Shown: one piece after another, positions 6,996-21,852 of the stretch | How the letters are laid out: every line of letters begins with the position of its first letter | How positions within the stretch are numbered: position 1 is the stretch's first letter | IMG/VR virus record: IMGVR_UViG_3300021389_000176 | Location: 1 to 21,852 of that record | DNA from: a virus | DNA length: 21,852 nucleotides | Strand: one strand, 5' to 3' | The notes under the pieces: generated by a model | Told to the model about the DNA's origin: nothing | Database searches by the model: none | What the model saw: only the letters and a program-made list of their open reading frames with translations | Translations under genes and position numbers: made by a program

Positions 6996-7553
6996 ATGTC
7001 AAGCAAGATACAGCTAATTTCTAATGCACTTATTCTAATTGGCGACTTGCCTGTAACATCTTTATCAGGTAACTCTCGCGCAGAGACTGTTGCTAACAAT
7101 TTGTACGACAATATTGTACAGAATGAACTAACAAAGTTTCGATGGGGCTTTGCCCGTAAGCAAGCTCAATTGTCTTTAACTGTCGAGGAGCCTATAGGCA
7201 CTGAATGGCAGTCTATTTATCAGCTTCCTACCGATATGCTTGTTTTAATTAAATTAAGTCCAAGCATCAGATACCAAATTCTTGGTGACAAAGTTTATTG
7301 CAACTATAGTGGAACTCTATATTGCGATTATATTGCTAACGTCTCCGAGTCTGAATGGCCCGTATATTTTTCTAAGATGATTGAATACGCATTGGCTATG
7401 GACTTTGCTCCATCCATTCGCGACAGCGCATCTTCTATGCAACTACTGGCTAACCAGTATTTAAACGCTAGTCGTATGGCTAGATTTACTGACTCTCAGC
7501 AACACCCCCAAACACCTATCCAGGATCAACCCTTTATTAATGTGAGGTACTAA
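6996..7553 (+). CDS. Tail tubular protein A / adaptor (T7 gp11-type)
   Basis: The 185-residue adaptor forms the ring that joins the portal to the nozzle. Family features are a start with NALILIGDLPVTSLSG, AETVANNLYDNIVQNELTKFRWGFARKQAQL (about 30-60), WQSIYQLPTDML (about 70-82), a DYIANVSESEWPVYF segment and an Asp/Ala-rich helical C-terminus. The length is close to T7 gp11 (196). The gene starts about 18 bases after the terminator's T tract, with an AAAGG ribosome site, and its stop overlaps the nozzle start (TAATG), so adaptor and nozzle are probably translated together. Confidence 0.9.
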   Translation: MSSKIQLISNALILIGDLPVTSLSGNSRAETVANNLYDNIVQNELTKFRWGFARKQAQLSLTVEEPIGTEWQSIYQLPTDMLVLIKLSPSIRYQILGDKVYCNYSGTLYCDYIANVSESEWPVYFSKMIEYALAMDFAPSIRDSASSMQLLANQYLNASRMARFTDSQQHPQTPIQDQPFINVRY

Positions 7554-10135
7554 TGCCTAAGTCGCAATATAAGCAGTCCAGCTTTGCTAGTGGAGAGCTT
7601 TCGCCGTTACTAATAGGCCGTACCGATCTTGATCAGTATTACAAGGGTGGGCAATCTGCTGAAAACGTAGTTATCGTACCGCAGGGTGGCGTAAAGCGTA
7701 GACCTGGGACTGAGTTTATTGACGGAGTTGTTAGGGCGCTAGTACGTCAAACTGCTGTAACGCCAACTATGCCCAATGGCGGTGTTGCTGCTAATATCAA
7801 TGACGGAGATGATGAAACATTTGGTATTACGAATGTTCTTACTTCTGCTGGAAACCCAAACGTTGTTGCTCAGTATGATTTTGGTTCTCCAACATTAAAC
7901 GACTTTATTGATCTCAGGAATGTCAGTCTTATTCCTAATCCTGCAGTTGCCGATGGTGTTGTAGTTTCGGCTTTTATGAACATCCAATATTCAGATAATG
8001 CTATTGATTGGACTTCCGTTAAGCCAGGGCCTCTTGGCGTATTTCTGCGCGTGGACAATGTTAGTCCTAAAAACATTAGATTTAAAATAGATAACTTAAA
8101 CAAGCGTTACTGGAGGGTATTAGCTGCGGTTTCACTTGGTGACAGCGTTCAAATAAAAGTTGGGGAATTTGGCTTTAAAAATGAATCGCTTGGAATTGGC
8201 ACAGCTAAAACATTTGACTGGCATTATGGAGTCGATCAAAGCTATCTTGGTGTACTGACTGCTGGCAATCTTAGGTTTTATAGAACGCCTCATGCTGGCA
8301 GCACAGAGACAGTTTATGTAGCTGATGTAATTGTGCCTTATTCAGAAGCAACAGTAGATAGCGTAAGGGATGCTCAAACAGAAAATGTAATGCTTATGTT
8401 TCAGGAGGATTACCCTCCGGTACGCATTGTATTTAGTGGGTTAGATGAAACTGACGCTTTTGTGCTAGACAACATTCCTTTTATAAATGTTCCGCAGTAT
8501 GATTATGATGACGTTGATAGCCCTATTTCCATACCTGCAATACAGGTCTGTACATTTAGTGGTTTTACTTATGGGCAGCAATATCAAATTGATGTTGATG
8601 GAGTTTTAAGTAAAGACATTACTTATTCTGGGGATTCAAATGCTGATGAGCAATCTTCTACGGCTTTCCATTTGCAGAAGAATTTGCAGGATATGCCTAA
8701 CTTTGGTTTTTCGGGTATAACTGTAGAAAGAACTGCCGCCAAAACATACACAATCACAATGGCTGGAGCGTCAGCAGGTGATTATGAATTGTTTGCTGGA
8801 TTCCCTACTAGTGGAAATGTAAATGACACAATAGCGTTTACCATAACACAGCAAGGACAATCTCAATCTGAAGATGTTTGGTCAGAAACTAGGGGCTATC
8901 CAAAGTTAGGAGTATTTTTTGAGGGGCGTTTATGGCTGGGCGGTACAAAGTCTAAGCCACAGAGTTTGTTTGCATCTAGGTCAGGCAGTTACTTTGACTT
9001 CTTTAGCGAGAAGGGTGACGATGATGAAGGCATATTTATAACAATTGACTCTCGCGGATTAACTAACATTGTTGATATTAATCCAGATCGAGGCTTGCAG
9101 TTGTTTTGCTCAGGCAGTGAGTTTGTAGTTAAAGGTCAAACTCCGTCAGATATTTCGGTTGTTGCTCAGACTCAGCATGGCTCAATTAATCTTGAGTCAA
9201 AAGCTGTTGACGGGGCCACACTATTTGTAGACAAGAATGGAAATACTTTGCGTCAGTATGTATTCAGCTTTAATGAAGATGCCTATACATCTAATGACAT
9301 TTCTGTTTTGTCTTCACAGTTAATTAATCAGCCCGTCGATATGGCTTTGTTGTCTGGCAGCACAACAGAAGATGCGAACTGGGTATTTTTGGTAAATCAG
9401 GATGGTACTGGTGCCGTCTTAAATACAATGAGAGCGCAAGATATAAATGGCTTTACGCGCTGGACACCTTCACCAATAAACACTATTAAGTCGTGCTCTG
9501 CTGTTGGAGACGAAATGTACATGATCGTGTATCGCCAAGTAGGCATCGCTGATTTCTATGACATTGAGCGATGGAGTTTTGACTATGTCACAGAGTCTGC
9601 TTTAAAAACTACAGTGGTTAATATGGGGTCTGATGTTATCATACCTGTTGGCCCTAGGCTTGAGGGTTATGAAGTAAGCGTTGTGGCAGATGGCGATGTG
9701 TTGCCCAGTAGAGTTGTTGCTTTTGACAATGGCGCTTGGGGCATTACAATTACCGCAGCAGAGCTTAATGGATTTAGTACTAGGGATATAGAGGTTGGGC
9801 TTAACTTTCCAGTAACAGTAAAGACAATGCCTGTCAACACCAGTTCTGGCACCCGCCTTGGTCAAAATAGTATGCGCGAAAAGAAAATTTGCAGAATGAA
9901 TTTAAGAGTGTATGAGACTGCTGGAGTCTATGTTGACGGAAACCCTGTAGCAATTAGGCAGTTTGGTGCAGCCCCTAATACTCCATTAAATACATCATTT
10001 ACACCTATAACTGGCGTTATAGAAGATGACAATGGCGGCAATGGCTGGGGCATTGATGTTGTTCCTGAGATCACAGTACCAGATCCTACGCCTTTCCATT
10101 TACAGGCTATTGAGTATGAGGTCGAATCTTCGTGA
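7553..10135 (+). CDS. Tail tubular protein B / nozzle (T7 gp12-type) with a discoidin-like insertion
   Basis: The nozzle forms the hexameric lower tail tube. The N-terminus (SFASGELSPLLIGRTDLDQYYKGG...QGGVKRRPGTEF, residues 9-55) is diagnostic. The next canonical nozzle segment, DWHYGVDQSYLGVLTAGNLRFYR, appears only at about 222-244. Between them, residues about 62-215 fit an F5/8 type C (discoidin-like) domain: NINDGDDETF (81-90), VAQYDFGS (105-112), IQYSDNAIDWTSV (144-156) and RYWRVLA (185-191). A second beta-rich insert (about 327-437), of a kind common in marine nozzles, precedes the conserved GVFFEGRLWLGGTKSKPQSLFASRSGSYFDF stretch. The 860 residues compare with 794 in T7 gp12. The end overlaps the next gene's GTG (GTGA). 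Nozzle call firm; domain call by eye. Confidence 0.93.
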   Translation: MPKSQYKQSSFASGELSPLLIGRTDLDQYYKGGQSAENVVIVPQGGVKRRPGTEFIDGVVRALVRQTAVTPTMPNGGVAANINDGDDETFGITNVLTSAGNPNVVAQYDFGSPTLNDFIDLRNVSLIPNPAVADGVVVSAFMNIQYSDNAIDWTSVKPGPLGVFLRVDNVSPKNIRFKIDNLNKRYWRVLAAVSLGDSVQIKVGEFGFKNESLGIGTAKTFDWHYGVDQSYLGVLTAGNLRFYRTPHAGSTETVYVADVIVPYSEATVDSVRDAQTENVMLMFQEDYPPVRIVFSGLDETDAFVLDNIPFINVPQYDYDDVDSPISIPAIQVCTFSGFTYGQQYQIDVDGVLSKDITYSGDSNADEQSSTAFHLQKNLQDMPNFGFSGITVERTAAKTYTITMAGASAGDYELFAGFPTSGNVNDTIAFTITQQGQSQSEDVWSETRGYPKLGVFFEGRLWLGGTKSKPQSLFASRSGSYFDFFSEKGDDDEGIFITIDSRGLTNIVDINPDRGLQLFCSGSEFVVKGQTPSDISVVAQTQHGSINLESKAVDGATLFVDKNGNTLRQYVFSFNEDAYTSNDISVLSSQLINQPVDMALLSGSTTEDANWVFLVNQDGTGAVLNTMRAQDINGFTRWTPSPINTIKSCSAVGDEMYMIVYRQVGIADFYDIERWSFDYVTESALKTTVVNMGSDVIIPVGPRLEGYEVSVVADGDVLPSRVVAFDNGAWGITITAAELNGFSTRDIEVGLNFPVTVKTMPVNTSSGTRLGQNSMREKKICRMNLRVYETAGVYVDGNPVAIRQFGAAPNTPLNTSFTPITGVIEDDNGGNGWGIDVVPEITVPDPTPFHLQAIEYEVESS

Positions 10136-10509
10136 ATGATGTTGTAGCGCAAGATAGTATTTACCAACTACAAGAAATAATAAAGGATTTTCCAAAGGCA
10201 GAAGTAATTACAAGACACCATTTTTCTGATGGTATGTATGCAAGAGAGATGGTAATGCCTCCAGGAAGTATTGTTGTAGGGGCGCTTCATAAAAGCAAAC
10301 ACCTGTTTAGCGTGGTATCTGGTGAGTGTAAGGTATCTAGCGTTCACGAAAGAGAAAAAATTACAGCTCCGTATTTGGGCGAGACAGTGCCAGGAACTAA
10401 GCGTGTTATATATAGCGAGACAGGGTGTACTTGGATTACATACCATCCTACACACTTAACAGATATTGATGAAATAGAAGCAGCTCTAGTAGAGCAAGAG
10501 GTTATTTAA
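10132..10509 (+). CDS. Cupin-like protein in the tail cluster
   Basis: The 125-residue product has a likely beta-barrel with PPGSIVVGALHKSKHLFSVVSGECKV (about 43-68), resembling cupin motif 1 with two histidines (H53, H57) four residues apart, then VPGTKRVIYSETGCTWITYHP (about 86-106) as a second motif with H105. The exact G(X)5HXH spacing is not met, so metal binding is uncertain. The start is GTG 10132, overlapping the nozzle stop, with GAGGT at 10118-10122; the nearby ATGATG is out of frame. Similar small cupin-like ORFs occur in tail gene clusters of environmental phages without assigned function. A structural tail accessory or a sugar- or metal-binding role are both possible. Confidence 0.6.
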   Translation: MNDVVAQDSIYQLQEIIKDFPKAEVITRHHFSDGMYAREMVMPPGSIVVGALHKSKHLFSVVSGECKVSSVHEREKITAPYLGETVPGTKRVIYSETGCTWITYHPTHLTDIDEIEAALVEQEVI

Positions 10510-12604: not shown

Positions 12605-15600
12605 ATGGCAAGTAAAGAAGAGTTGTTAGGTAAAGCACAAAATGCTGTTGAAAAAGGCATCCTTACAAAAGATAACTACCAAATGGCGATAACTGCAACT
12701 CGCGACAATCCAGAGTTAATAGACTATTTTTCTTCTGTTTTTCCTGAAACAGATCAAGTAACTGAAACAACTCAGCTACCTCCTCGTTACGAGTTTGAGG
12801 GAACAGAAGTTAGCAAGGAACTATTTGAAGAGCTTAGTCGAGAATCTGATCCCGGATTTGTTGGCGATCTTGATCCATCCGATGAGTCTATACCTTTTGA
12901 AGAAGAGGTGGAGGAGCTTGTATTTGCACCTACTGACAAACCAGTAGAAGACCTTGTGTTCGCACCTACGGATAAGCCAGTAGAAGACCTTGTGTTCGCA
13001 CCTACTGATAAGCCAATGACTATTGGTGAGCAGAATGTTGCTGCCCTAAATAACACTGTGGATTTGACTGACCCCTCTATGCTTGAGTTTAACGACCAAG
13101 CCCAGAAGAATGAAGATACCACATGGAACCTTGCGCTTACTCGGTTTACCCCAGAGCAGATTGAGGAGATGAAAGACAATCCTATTGGTTGGAGTGAGGC
13201 CAATGACTTTATTACTCCATCTGATTACCTGCCTCTTGGCGGACTTGTTCGAGGTTATGAGGCTCTAGGTCTTGCCGGTATAGCTAAGAAGATACAGGAT
13301 AAGGTTCCACTTACTGAGTCTGAAGAAACCAAGTTTAATGACTACATAGACACTGAGCTTGAAAAGCAGATCAGGGGCTTTACCTGGGGCGGGGGCATGA
13401 AATATTACGGTGCTCCTATGCCTGCGTTTATAGCTGAGTTTGCTGCTACTGGTGGCATTGGTAAGACTGCACAGACTGCTGCTACACAGGCTCTAACCAA
13501 GGGCGTTATGGTGTCTGCACAAGCTGCTGCTGCTGCACGTTATACAGGTTATGGCGCTAGAGTTGCTGCTCAATCTACTGCAATGGTTCCAGCAAACGTA
13601 GCTAACTATGGTGACTTGCGTTTAGGTCAGTTTGTCCAGCTTACTCAGACTGGTCAGGCTATCTTGAGTGATGCCAAAGAATCCCCGGCTGTCACTGCGT
13701 TAAAAGCATTTGCGTACACTAACGCTGAAATTGCCAGTGAGCTTGTTGGTGTTAAAGTTGGGAAGTTCGTTGTAGACCCTATTACTCGAAGACTTGCTAC
13801 TAATGCTAAGACATCTATAAATAAGCTGCCACCTGCACTTATAGAGGGCATTACTAAGGCTTACCAGAAGATACAGCCTAACGCTAAGGTTCAGGAGATA
13901 CTGACCAGAGCTGGTTGGCATGGTGTACTTAATGAGCTTGGTGAGGAACGTGTTGCTGCTGTACTGAATACGTACGTTGATATGGCATTTGGTGAGACAT
14001 TTACTGTCGATGAAGTATGGGATCGCATTGTTCCTGACAAAGATCAGTTCCTTATTGAGGCTGGACTGATCGCTACTATGGGTGGCGTTAAGACTGTAGG
14101 TGTTGCTGCAAGTAACATACTTTCTAACCAGGGGCGCACTGAGCAGGAGATCATGGAGGCTCTTGAAGGCCTGACTGATGAAGAACTACAGAACGTAGTT
14201 GATGAGCAGACTAATGTTGAAGAGAACGCGCCTGTCAGTGTTGTGCTGAAAGAAGATAGAGTTGGCGATTACGTCAATGATCAGCAGAAGTCTGAAGATC
14301 AAACTATGCTTGAGTTCATGCAGGTTTCTTTTGTTCCTAGAGAAGTAATATCTCAAAAAATAAATGAAGCAAAGATACAGGAATATGAGGCTACTGAAGA
14401 GTTGTCTTTTGATAAGCGCAGAGAAAAAGAAGTAAAAAGATTAGAGAAGTCTGCTGAAAATATAAAGAAAAGATCATTAAGGTTTATTGACCTTATTGCC
14501 GGTAATGGTGCGTTAGACCCTGAGCAGTTAATTTACTATGGCGCTGATCCTAGTATGTTTTATAACATCGATCAGTATGGAAGATATGGCACAAACAAAA
14601 AGGCACCTATTGGTAAAAAGCTCAAAAGAGTTTGGTCTGTTAAAAATCCAAAGCAAACAATATCTGACTTGACGGAAAGATATAATGAAGAGATGGGCCT
14701 GTTTGATATGGGCGCAAGAGCTGGTGGTTCTAGTGACAGAACTATTGGCGATAATGAAATGGCTGAAATGGTTATCGAGTGGTTAAGTGAGGGCGATTAT
14801 GATCTCTTGCTAAATCAAGGTGATCAGATGGAAATTGACATGACTCTTGACGAAGCTAGTCGTCTTGAAAGCATGGATGACTTGCAGACAAAAGAATACT
14901 TTGATGATGCTTACCGCAGTATTGCTGAGTTTAATGAGGCAGAAGTTCCAGTTGAGACTGAAGCAACGCTGGCTGGTGAGGACATTGAGTACGCTGACAG
15001 TATTGATCAAGCAGAGTTCAATGAGAATGTTGCCGAGCTTGAGAAGTTCCTCATAGAGCAAGAGACTGCTGAAAGAGCTGAGATGTATGACTTCCCAGAA
15101 GGTGAGTTGTTAGCTCAATTTGTTGACCAGCCTGAGTTGGTTGATGAAGCGCCACCTATGATTGACCACAGCCAGAGTCTATTTGCTAGTTTTTATGCGG
15201 CATTTGTAAACAAGTTTGACGCAGTAGAAAAAGCCCTGAAGCTGGCTAAGAGTCGTGGTGCAGCAGTTCTTGACGGTGCTAACACTGAGTTATTGATTAG
15301 TGCGTACAGCGGAATCATTGGAAACATTAAGTACACTCTCCAGAGAAACACATACTCTATGGATGAGAATGGCAACATGGTTAAGTCCGGTATTGGTTTG
15401 AAGCCAATCCTAGAAGCCTTTGATGCCAAGCTGTTTGGTGTTGAGCCTAGCAAAGCCAAGAGAAAAGCCGACCTTGCTAAGTTCCTGATAGCCAAGCGCA
15501 TCCAGCAGGACTTGCAGAACTACACTATTCCTGGTGAAAGAGATGCAGCTCCAGAGGTTGAGGCTGAAGTTGATCCTAGCCGAGTATATGAAGAGCCAAG

Positions 15601-18456: not shown

Positions 18457-21400
18457 ATGCCTGTAACTGGCGGAGTAACTAGAAACGATTATATCGCATC
18501 AGATAGTCAAACTGTTTTTGCCTATACGTTTAAAGTGTTATCTGCCTCTGACTTAAAGGTCTTGAAGGATGGCGTAGAGCTTACTGTTAATAATGATTAT
18601 AACGTTTCTAATGTGGGGAATGAAAACGGTGGTAATGTAATTTTAACAGTTGGTGCTTCTTCTGGAAGTAAGCTGTCTATTCTTTTGGCAATGCCTATTA
18701 CCCGCACAACCAACTACCAGAATGCTGGTGACTTCTTGGCATCAGATGTTAATGCCGACTTTGACAAAGCCTACCTGGCAATGAATCAACTTGAGACTGA
18801 CATTGATCGTTCTATTGGACTGCAAGATGTAGAGCCAAGTGCAAACTTAAAGCTCCCCTTAGAGGCTGATAGAGCAAACAAAATTTTAACCTTTGACGCA
18901 TCTGGGGATGTGACTGCAACTACACCAAACTATGGTGGCGGTGAATCTTTAGCTCAAACACTAGCGATAGGAAATCAAACTGGCGGGAACAACGTTGTAT
19001 TTGATGACAATGATAAATCCATTTTTGGTGATAGCCTAGATTTACAAATTTACCATGATGCTTCTAACAGCTATGTGGTAGATTCTGGGGAAGGCAACTT
19101 GTTTATTGGCGGTGCAAGTTATGTCGACATTGGTAATGGTGTTGTTGGTGTCGGTGGACAAACATACGCTAGGTTCAATACTGCTGGTAGCTGCGATCTG
19201 AAGTTCAACAACGTCAACAAGATGTCAACAACTAACACTGGCATTGATGTCGATGGCACTGTTGAGTTTGATGGCCTCAAAGGAACTGGCGCTGTTACAG
19301 TTACAAATATACTCGATGAAGATAACATGGCCTCCGATAGTGCTACTGCTCTTGCAACCCAGCAGTCTATTAAAGCATACGTTGATGCTAACGCTGGTGG
19401 TGGTGGAGACTTTTTACCTTTAACTGGCGGGGCATTGACTGGCGCAGTAACTACTACTAGCACTTTTAATGGTCGTGATGTTTCGGTAGACGGTACTAAG
19501 CTAGACGGTATTGGAGCAGGTGCTGATGTAACTGACACCACTAACGTTGTTGCCGCTTTATCAGCAGGCACAGGCATTAGCTTGTCGGCTGGTGGAGAGA
19601 TTGCTAACACATCTCCTGACCAAACCGTAGCACTTGCGGGTGGCACGGGTATTTCCACTTCAGGAACTTACCCTAACTTCACTATTACGAATGATTCCCC
19701 TGACCAAATTGTTGCGCTTACAGGCGGGGGCGGTACAACTGTTACCGGAACATATCCGAGCTTTACAATCACCAGCACTGGCGGGGGTGGCGGAAATGAA
19801 ACCTTAGCGCAAACATTAGTTCTTGGTAACGTTACGGGCGGTACTGACATTTCAGTGTCTAGCGGCGATAACATTCTCATGGCTGCCAATTCTACAGTAG
19901 ATGGTCGCGATGTCTCTGTTGATGGTACTAAGTTAGATGGTATCGAAGCGGGTGCAGATGTTACAGATACTACTAATGTAGTTGCAGCTTTGTCTGCTGG
20001 CACTGGAATCACATTGTCTGCTGGTGGAGAAATCGCTAACTCGGCTCCTGATCAAACTGTGGCACTCACTGGTGGTACTGGTATCTCTACTTCTGGTACT
20101 TACCCTAACTTTACCATTACTAATGATTCTCCTGACCAGACTGTTGGTCTTACTGGTGCAGGCGGCACTACTATTACTGGTACTTACCCCAACTTTACTA
20201 TTACTAGCACAGATGTTGGCGGCGCAACTCTGGCACAAACATTAGCACTTGGAAACCAAACTAGCGGCAACAACATAGCTTTTGGTGATAATGACAAGGC
20301 ATTGTTTGGTCAAAGTTTAGATTTCCAAATTTACCATGACACCCTTAATAGTTATGTAGTTGATTCTGGAACTGGCAACTTATTTATAGGTGGAGTTGCT
20401 TACGTAGATATTGGCAATGGTGTATCAGGCGTAGGTGGTCAGACCTATGCAAGATTTAATCAAGGCGCTGGTTGCGATCTAAAACACAACAACGTTCAGA
20501 AGATGTCAACAACCTCTACAGGCATAGACGTTAGTGGCAATGTTGTTCTGACTGGAACTGTTGATGGCCGTGATGTAGCTACTGACGGCACTAAGCTGGA
20601 TGGCATAGAGGCAGGTGCTACTGGCGATCAAACAGCAGCAGAGATACTAACTGCTATCAAGACTGTTGATGGCGCAGGGTCTGGCTTAGACGCTGATTTA
20701 TTAGATGGCCAGGAAGGAACATTTTATTATCCTGCAAGCAACCCTAATGGCTACACTTCTAACGTAGGCGACATTACAGCAGTAGTGGCTGGTAATGGTT
20801 TGTCTGGTGGAGGCGTTTCTGGGACGGTAACAGTTGATGTCGGTGCAGGCGATGGTATAGCTGTTGCGGTAAATACTGTAGCTGTGGACTCTACTGTTAT
20901 CAGAACCACGGGCAACCAAGCTATTGCAGGTATAAAAAACTTTAGTGATGAGATTAGAGCCAACGGCGGCATTGGAGTGGGCGAAAACGACAAGATTACG
21001 TTTGGTACTAGCGATGACCTAGAGATTTATCATGATGGTTCTAATAGTTATATAAAAGATGTAGGCACTGGTAATTTAAGGATTCAAGGCGACAATGTTC
21101 AATTCACGAATGCTGCTGGTACTCAGAATACAATGTTTGCCGTCAGTAATGGTGGTGTGAGTTTATACAACGCCAATCAATTAAAGTTACAAACAAACGC
21201 CCTCGGCGTAGCTGTTACTGGAGAAATTACAGCGGATGGTCTTTCCCTTGGTGACAACGACAAGGCATTGTTCGGTGCTGGTGATGACTTAGAGATTTAC
21301 CATAATGGTTCTAATAGTTATATTACAGACACAGGAACTGGAAACCTTTTTGTCGGTGGATCAAGCTATGTCGATATTGGTAATGGCGCAACAGGACTTG

Positions 21401-21852
21401 GCGGCCAAACTTATGCTAGGTTTAATGTGTCCGGCGCGTGTCAGCTTAACTACAATGGTTCCGACAAGCTAAAAACCATTAGCACTGGTGCAAATATTAC
21501 TGGTTCGTTAGGAATCAACACAACGTCACCACAAGAAGAACTACACGTAGTAGGCGACATTATAGCCACCGGCAACATTACCGCTTTCTTCTCAGACGAG
21601 CGACTCAAGGACTTCCAGGGAACTATCCCTGATGCACTGGATAAGGTCAACAGTCTTAATGGTTACTACTTTACTCCGAACGATACTGCACTTGGTCTTG
21701 GCGTAGAAGATAAGGGTGTTGAGGTAGGTATCTCTGCCCAGGAAGTAGAAGCTGTGCTGCCTGAGATTGTTACTGACTCTGCGGTTGGTGAAGGTTACAA
21801 GACTGTATGGTATGAGAAACTAACTCCCTTGTTGATTGAAGATGTCAAAGAA
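18457..21852 (+). CDS. Tail fibre with T7 gp17-type N-terminus and C-terminal S74 chaperone (partial, open at window end)
   Basis: The frame is open for 1132 codons from ATG 18457 to the window edge. Residues 1-150 match the T7 fibre attachment domain (TVFAYTFKVLSASDLKVLKDG..., RTTNYQNAGDFLASDVNADFDKAYLAMNQLE). The shaft has four copies of an N/D-N-D-K..FG...DL.IYHD..NSY..D.G.GNL module and two long copies of a DGTKLDGI.AGADVTDTTNV module. The end shows a Peptidase S74 intramolecular chaperone: FFSDERLK (S1046 and K1051, the expected cleavage dyad), SLNGYYFTPND, VGISAQEVEAVLPEIV and WYEKLTPLLIEDVKE. In known fibres this domain helps trimer folding and then cuts itself off before the Ser. Host recognition is the likely role. 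Some tens of residues are probably missing. Confidence 0.93.
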   Translation, partial: MPVTGGVTRNDYIASDSQTVFAYTFKVLSASDLKVLKDGVELTVNNDYNVSNVGNENGGNVILTVGASSGSKLSILLAMPITRTTNYQNAGDFLASDVNADFDKAYLAMNQLETDIDRSIGLQDVEPSANLKLPLEADRANKILTFDASGDVTATTPNYGGGESLAQTLAIGNQTGGNNVVFDDNDKSIFGDSLDLQIYHDASNSYVVDSGEGNLFIGGASYVDIGNGVVGVGGQTYARFNTAGSCDLKFNNVNKMSTTNTGIDVDGTVEFDGLKGTGAVTVTNILDEDNMASDSATALATQQSIKAYVDANAGGGGDFLPLTGGALTGAVTTTSTFNGRDVSVDGTKLDGIGAGADVTDTTNVVAALSAGTGISLSAGGEIANTSPDQTVALAGGTGISTSGTYPNFTITNDSPDQIVALTGGGGTTVTGTYPSFTITSTGGGGGNETLAQTLVLGNVTGGTDISVSSGDNILMAANSTVDGRDVSVDGTKLDGIEAGADVTDTTNVVAALSAGTGITLSAGGEIANSAPDQTVALTGGTGISTSGTYPNFTITNDSPDQTVGLTGAGGTTITGTYPNFTITSTDVGGATLAQTLALGNQTSGNNIAFGDNDKALFGQSLDFQIYHDTLNSYVVDSGTGNLFIGGVAYVDIGNGVSGVGGQTYARFNQGAGCDLKHNNVQKMSTTSTGIDVSGNVVLTGTVDGRDVATDGTKLDGIEAGATGDQTAAEILTAIKTVDGAGSGLDADLLDGQEGTFYYPASNPNGYTSNVGDITAVVAGNGLSGGGVSGTVTVDVGAGDGIAVAVNTVAVDSTVIRTTGNQAIAGIKNFSDEIRANGGIGVGENDKITFGTSDDLEIYHDGSNSYIKDVGTGNLRIQGDNVQFTNAAGTQNTMFAVSNGGVSLYNANQLKLQTNALGVAVTGEITADGLSLGDNDKALFGAGDDLEIYHNGSNSYITDTGTGNLFVGGSSYVDIGNGATGLGGQTYARFNVSGACQLNYNGSDKLKTISTGANITGSLGINTTSPQEELHVVGDIIATGNITAFFSDERLKDFQGTIPDALDKVNSLNGYYFTPNDTALGLGVEDKGVEVGISAQEVEAVLPEIVTDSAVGEGYKTVWYEKLTPLLIEDVKE
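18937..19260 (+). repeat. Fibre module A, first copy
   Basis: About 108 codons, collinear without gaps with 20218-20541 at an offset of 1281 bases. The translation includes LAQTLA-GNQT-GNN, LQIYHD, NSYVVDSG-GNLFIGG and YVDIGNGV-GVGGQTYARFN. A shorter, more diverged version lies at 21250-21504, and a half module at 20980-21060. Confidence 0.85.
19468..19776 (+). repeat. Fibre module B, first copy
   Basis: 103 codons, collinear without gaps with 19900-20208 at an offset of 432 bases. By hand count 92 of 103 residues are identical, while about 53 of those 92 codons differ at a synonymous position. Confidence 0.88.
19900..20208 (+). repeat. Fibre module B, second copy
   Basis: Second copy of the 103-residue module; see the first copy at 19468-19776. 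A short third piece (DGRDV.TDGTKLDGIEAG) is at 20563-20619. Codons here lean strongly to T-ending forms (ACT, GGT, TCT, GAT), unlike the first copy. Confidence 0.88.
20218..20541 (+). repeat. Fibre module A, second copy
   Basis: Second copy of the 108-codon A module (first copy 18937-19260), directly after the second B module, so the order along the fibre is A-B-B'-A'. Within it 20281-20340 encodes GDNDKALFGQSLDFQIYHD. Confidence 0.85.
20980..21504 (+). repeat. Diverged A-type modules near the fibre C-terminus
   Basis: Two further occurrences of the DNDK..FG...DLEIYH.GSNSYI.D.GTGNL pattern, starting at 20980 and 21250. The second continues into SSYVDIGNGATGLGGQTYARFN like the full A module; the first switches to a different sequence after GNL. 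The S74 domain follows. Confidence 0.75.

Follow-up and report, generated by a model that had tools for sequence, protein, structure and literature searches.

A variable discoidin-like domain inserted in the tail nozzle of an uncultured T7-type phage may provide a second host contact beside the fibre

In this study, a T7 gp12-type tail nozzle with a discoidin-like domain inserted between its N-terminal strands and the remainder of the protein was found in the window, that is, the whole 21,852-nucleotide stretch of viral DNA analysed (IMG/VR record IMGVR_UViG_3300021389_000176; all window features given below are on the plus strand). The insert has a predicted beta-sandwich fold and has kept the residues of a calcium site; it is highly variable, differs in blocks between close relatives and occurs together with a tail fibre in the same phage. 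We believe that the best explanation as a whole, to which we assign a probability of roughly 0.55, is that this domain would be an outward-facing, calcium-stabilised discoidin-like module acting as a second host contact beside the fibres.

Judged by its sequence matches, the product of the intact 860-residue ORF at 7553..10135 is a T7 gp12-type tail nozzle. The solved nozzle-type structures 8ck1_A (E 2.4e-25) and 9efk_M (E 5.2e-17) and the tail family phrog_376 (E 2.3e-93) were matched, and the gp11-type adaptor, the partner of the nozzle (6996..7553; phrog_394 tail protein, E 8.4e-36), lies directly 5' of it, which is the gene order expected for a T7 gp12-type protein. Residues 1-60 (7553..7732), aligned with residues 8-61 of 8ck1_A and with 9efk_M, are the N-terminal platform strands, labelled from T7 anatomy (PMC6702177). 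Residues 222-860 (8216..10132; phrog_376 match at 224-859) comprise the propeller, tip, dock region and C-terminal platform, names that are given by analogy with T7. The nozzle thus shares with T7 gp12 and its relatives among the solved structures the same family, the adaptor-then-nozzle order and alignable N-terminal strands, central and C-terminal regions, but T7 gp12 has 20 residues at the insertion site, compared with about 169 in the nozzle of the window. The gene directly 3' of the nozzle (10132-10509) matched a PHROG family of short tail fiber proteins (phrog_12032, E 1.9e-31), and its product may be either another adhesin of the tail or a partner of the nozzle. Farther downstream, a 36-base unit is repeated 2.8 times in frame at 12917-13015, within the gene of a presumed internal virion protein of 1926 residues, and encodes the repeated VEDLVFAPTDKP.

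The preliminary description had placed a discoidin-like domain at 7736-8197, between a gp12-type start that ends near residue 55 and a nozzle segment that begins near residue 222. This region corresponds to nozzle residues 62-215 and lies within the gap between the two nozzle-matching parts. The match to the structure 8ck1_A covers residues 2-55 and resumes at 439-666, the N-terminal PDB matches stop at residues 55-61, and the phrog_376 match starts at residue 224, so that the two boundaries are borne out by independent matches. From the Pfam, profile, fold and site-length evidence, the domain itself was delimited to about residues 64-212 (7742..8188).

A total of 163 distinct nozzles from IMG/VR and annotated phages were aligned. 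The length of the insertion site was bimodal, with 14-26 residues in 58 nozzles, 154-239 residues in 105 and none between; these proportions do not reflect natural frequencies, since patterns from this same nozzle family were used to collect the sequences. The short-site nozzles include T7 gp12, BPP-1, Methylophilales phage MEP301 and Pelagibacter phage HTVC203P, and the segment is therefore not a common part of all T7-type nozzles: T7 gp12 and 57 others have only the short form. A lineage-specific segment of the nozzle core was rejected on these bimodal lengths. All sampled nozzles of the main clade, defined by a core identity of 50% or more, have kept the insert. A midpoint-rooted tree built from the nozzle outside the insert required two changes of insert state, one on the branch of the main clade plus Dunaliella viridis virus SI2 and the other at L131 (standing for L131 and L132), which nests next to nozzles without the insert (moderate support, 0.89-0.91). 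The nozzles of L131 (1238-3577) and L132 (4001-6358) belong to another lineage, with cores about 31% identical to that of the window, and have a homologous insert in the same position. The longest insert region, 239 residues in a nozzle of 1002, was seen in L125 (111-3116), where about 70 additional residues precede the discoidin-like part. A tblastn search of annotated phages with the segment alone gave no match, and no relatives were found in the bacterial and archaeal genomes searched.

Pfam, PDB-profile and fold searches agree in pointing to a discoidin-like domain in the nozzle, as first proposed from the sequence. When searched alone, the window segment matched PF00754 (F5/8 type C) weakly (E 0.0095-0.012, 16.5 bits, under the curated cut-off of 28.2). 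Among 41 diverse homologous segments, 22 matched PF00754 (best 6.7e-7) and 19 matched the sister family PF22633 (best 2.5e-7), and one homologue, L121, exceeded the PF22633 cut-off (31.6 vs 27.8). In the PDB, the profile of the 41 segments had the CBM32 structure 5zu6 as its top match (E 3.3e-6), and the PDB matches of both segment profiles were mostly CBM32 or discoidin chains. An AF2 model of the insert was a beta-sandwich (pLDDT 88.1, pTM 0.83), for which Foldseek placed CBM32 modules at the top of the PDB (E 3.6e-5, probability 1.00), with moderate TM-scores to solved CBM32s of about 0.36-0.57 by query length. Among viral proteins, the best match to the fold was A0A516KVZ4 (741 residues, TMq 0.71), which may be another insert-bearing nozzle. 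On these models and profiles, we regard the insert as a discoidin-like, i.e. galactose-binding-like, beta-sandwich.

All the motifs cited for this assignment were found: NINDGDDETF at residues 81-90, YDFG at 108-111, QYSDNAIDWT at 145-154 (7985..8014) and RYWRV at 185-189 (8105..8119). The last two belong to the core, with W or Y at position 153 and R at position 188 in all 105 homologues. NINDGDDETF had been described as ligand-loop-like and is better read as a structural calcium-site loop, because D84, T89 and E205 are the counterparts of the calcium ligands D804, T809 and E931 of LnbB-CBM32 (PMC12926856). The D-x4-T ... E spacing is as in LnbB-CBM32. In the loop D84-x4-T89 (DGDDET, 7802..7819), D is present in 101 and T in 102 of the 105 homologues; E205 (8165..8167), the third side-chain ligand of the presumed site, is E in 79. 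A CBM32-type structural calcium site is thus presumed from these residues. The canonical galactose-binding residues of CBM32 (H, aromatic, R, N, aromatic) were missing at the mapped positions, which hold T/S/L/V, T/A/V, L/I/V, N/V/G/T and K/R/T/A, according to a rough mapping based on the offset from the calcium site. The canonical motif is not common to all sugar-binding CBM32s, and CBM32 folds that do not bind sugar have been described (PMC3313936). Concentration of variability at the mapped ligand positions was not significant (circular-shift fractions 0.09-0.28).

No other part of the nozzle is as poorly conserved as the insert. In the main clade (n = 94), its mean pairwise identity was 0.33, compared with 0.60 for the rest of the nozzle, and the values for the propeller, tip and dock region were 0.65, 0.50 and 0.44, respectively. 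The pooled dN/dS of 72 close pairs was 0.32 for the insert, 0.29 for the tip, 0.27 for the dock region and 0.07 for the propeller, the pairs being non-independent and such estimates being disturbed by recombination. Within the insert, the predicted non-strand positions were more variable than the strands (0.149 vs 0.094). Between L109 and L110, nucleotide identity dropped to 48-65% over residues 81-200, within the insert, and was 76-100%, mostly above 85%, in all other parts. The nozzles of the window and L004 were nearly identical except for the insert (78-95%) and residues 381-400 (80%). Sharp differences between near-identical relatives were also seen in two other blocks, at 8693-8872 (about residues 381-440, in the tip) and 9473-9772 (about residues 641-740, in the dock region). 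The dock region was variable and was swapped along with the insert in the pairs L087/L083 and L108/L110. Such block differences look like allele exchange at surface parts. Moreover, the insert of L131 reaches 45% identity to an insert of the main clade, against 34% for the two cores; normally the relation is the other way round. This suggests horizontal transfer of the domain, which appears from these identities to have moved into the lineage of L131 and L132.

The phage also encodes a long tail fibre (18457..21852), cut by the end of the window, with an anchor at about residues 1-120 (phrog_1640 and tail-fibre PHROGs), a strongly repetitive middle and an S74 endosialidase-type chaperone near the C-terminus (PF13884, E 1.8e-9). 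The same fibre-anchor family was found in 10 of 16 contigs with the insert and in 19 of 22 other records; 21 of these 22 are without the insert, and the remaining one, L132, bears it and gave no match. As many contigs are fragments, missing anchors mean little. Since insert-free relatives use the same anchor family, the insert is additional to the fibre and dispensable for mounting it. The proposal that the domain sits on the nozzle apart from the fibre was supported: the insert lies at the junction of platform and propeller in phages that also encode a fibre, and T7 and many other nozzles are without it.

In the T7 nozzle, the 45-residue N-terminus supplies three strands of the platform, and the dock for the fibre is on the outer surface (PMC6702177). 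By the course of the chain in T7 and SU10, an insert in the link between platform and propeller should project outward, near the fibre dock; the AF2 monomer of the full-length nozzle was poor (pLDDT 57) and was for that reason left out of this placement. We propose that each nozzle subunit bears one discoidin-like domain, placed where a short stretch joins the N-terminal platform strands to the first propeller blade, which would make six per virion. Each would be a beta-sandwich stabilised by bound calcium, with its variable loops pointing away from the tail axis. The loops may bind a molecule of the host surface, either a glycan or a surface protein, and a glycan is somewhat likelier because of the predicted fold, although the missing galactose-binding residues, the non-significant focus of variability on the mapped ligand positions and the existence of CBM32 folds that bind no sugar all speak against a confident claim of sugar binding. 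In this way the domain would form a second contact beside the fibres and help to seat the tail before the nozzle opens. Because variation and exchange are much stronger in the domain than in the remainder of the nozzle, this contact is probably a changeable one. A precedent exists in Vibrio phage OWB, whose nozzle protein is reported to take part in adsorption (PMC7241545). Against this reading, relaxed constraint together with recombination could produce the same variability, and dN/dS was below 1 throughout.

The main rival is that the domain is a structural adaptor, which braces the fibre anchor or the joint between adaptor and platform or holds another small protein of the tail, for example the one encoded at 10132-10509, and the variability of the domain would then track that of its partner. 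By T7 anatomy the insertion point is indeed near the outer fibre dock, and the dock region is itself variable and exchanged with the insert in the two pairs named above. However, the same fibre-anchor family serves 19 of the 22 other, nearly all insert-free, records, and the insert of L109 and L110 fell to 48-65% nucleotide identity over residues 101-200 while their dock regions remained 81-95% identical in nucleotides. We consider this rival unlikely, though it deserves to be kept in mind.

It is less probable still that an acquired domain of little function is merely tolerated outside the tail, where it drifts and recombines. Such a passive decoration would fit the low conservation of the insert, its absence from many related nozzles and its missing sugar-binding residues. 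On the other side, the domain was kept in all sampled nozzles of the main clade, the residues of the fold core and calcium site are strongly conserved, dN/dS is well below 1 and the loops are more variable than the strands. That there is no discoidin-like insertion at all, only a lineage-specific nozzle core with a chance resemblance, could draw on the sub-threshold Pfam score of the window and the moderate TM-scores, but it is largely contradicted by the empty range of site lengths between 26 and 154 residues, the family-wide Pfam matches with one above the PF22633 cut-off, the convergence of profile and fold searches on CBM32 and the conserved spacing of the calcium site, and we regard it as very improbable.

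Nozzles and discoidin-like domains are each of already known kinds. The domain described here shares with CBM32 and F5/8 type C modules (5zu6, 4lks, LnbB-CBM32) the common beta-sandwich, profile similarity and the D-x4-T ... E residues. It differs in scoring under the Pfam cut-offs and in lacking the canonical galactose-binding residues, and it lies inside a phage nozzle and not next to an enzyme. A comparable insert at the same site was found in the tail protein of Dunaliella viridis virus SI2 (YP_009020989.1; L030, NC_023841), which is 26% identical overall to the nozzle of the window and has no Pfam hit. Among those inspected of 178 matching records, SI2 was the only annotated phage with a full-length match through the site. 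Although its record names a green alga as the host, it encodes an adaptor and a nozzle of tailed-phage type; this assignment may be mistaken, and a bacterium present in the culture is the likelier host. In Vibrio phage OWB, TTPA and TTPB bind Vp0980, and a nozzle protein is reported to act in adsorption beside the fibre, as we propose here, but in that case a membrane protein is the ligand (PMC7241545). No podovirus nozzle with a discoidin or CBM domain was described in the literature searched, which was incomplete in subscription journals; in the Peru-2 paper, the CBM is on the tailspike and not the nozzle. As far as could be checked, what is new is the pairing of nozzle and discoidin-like domain, together with its occurrence across an uncultured lineage and the way in which it behaves like a set of alleles.

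Predictions of host range in short-tailed phages centre on fibres and spikes. We tentatively suggest, at somewhat less than even odds, that a large uncultured T7-type lineage carries on its nozzle a second, exchangeable receptor-binding module, which recombines as alleles, has passed between nozzle lineages and adjusts host range without dependence on the fibre. Should a variable binding domain sit on the nozzle of a widespread environmental lineage, specificity would be set in two places. Whether a T7-type nozzle itself senses the cell surface before it opens would then become testable by taking away a single discrete domain, from which related nozzles are naturally free.
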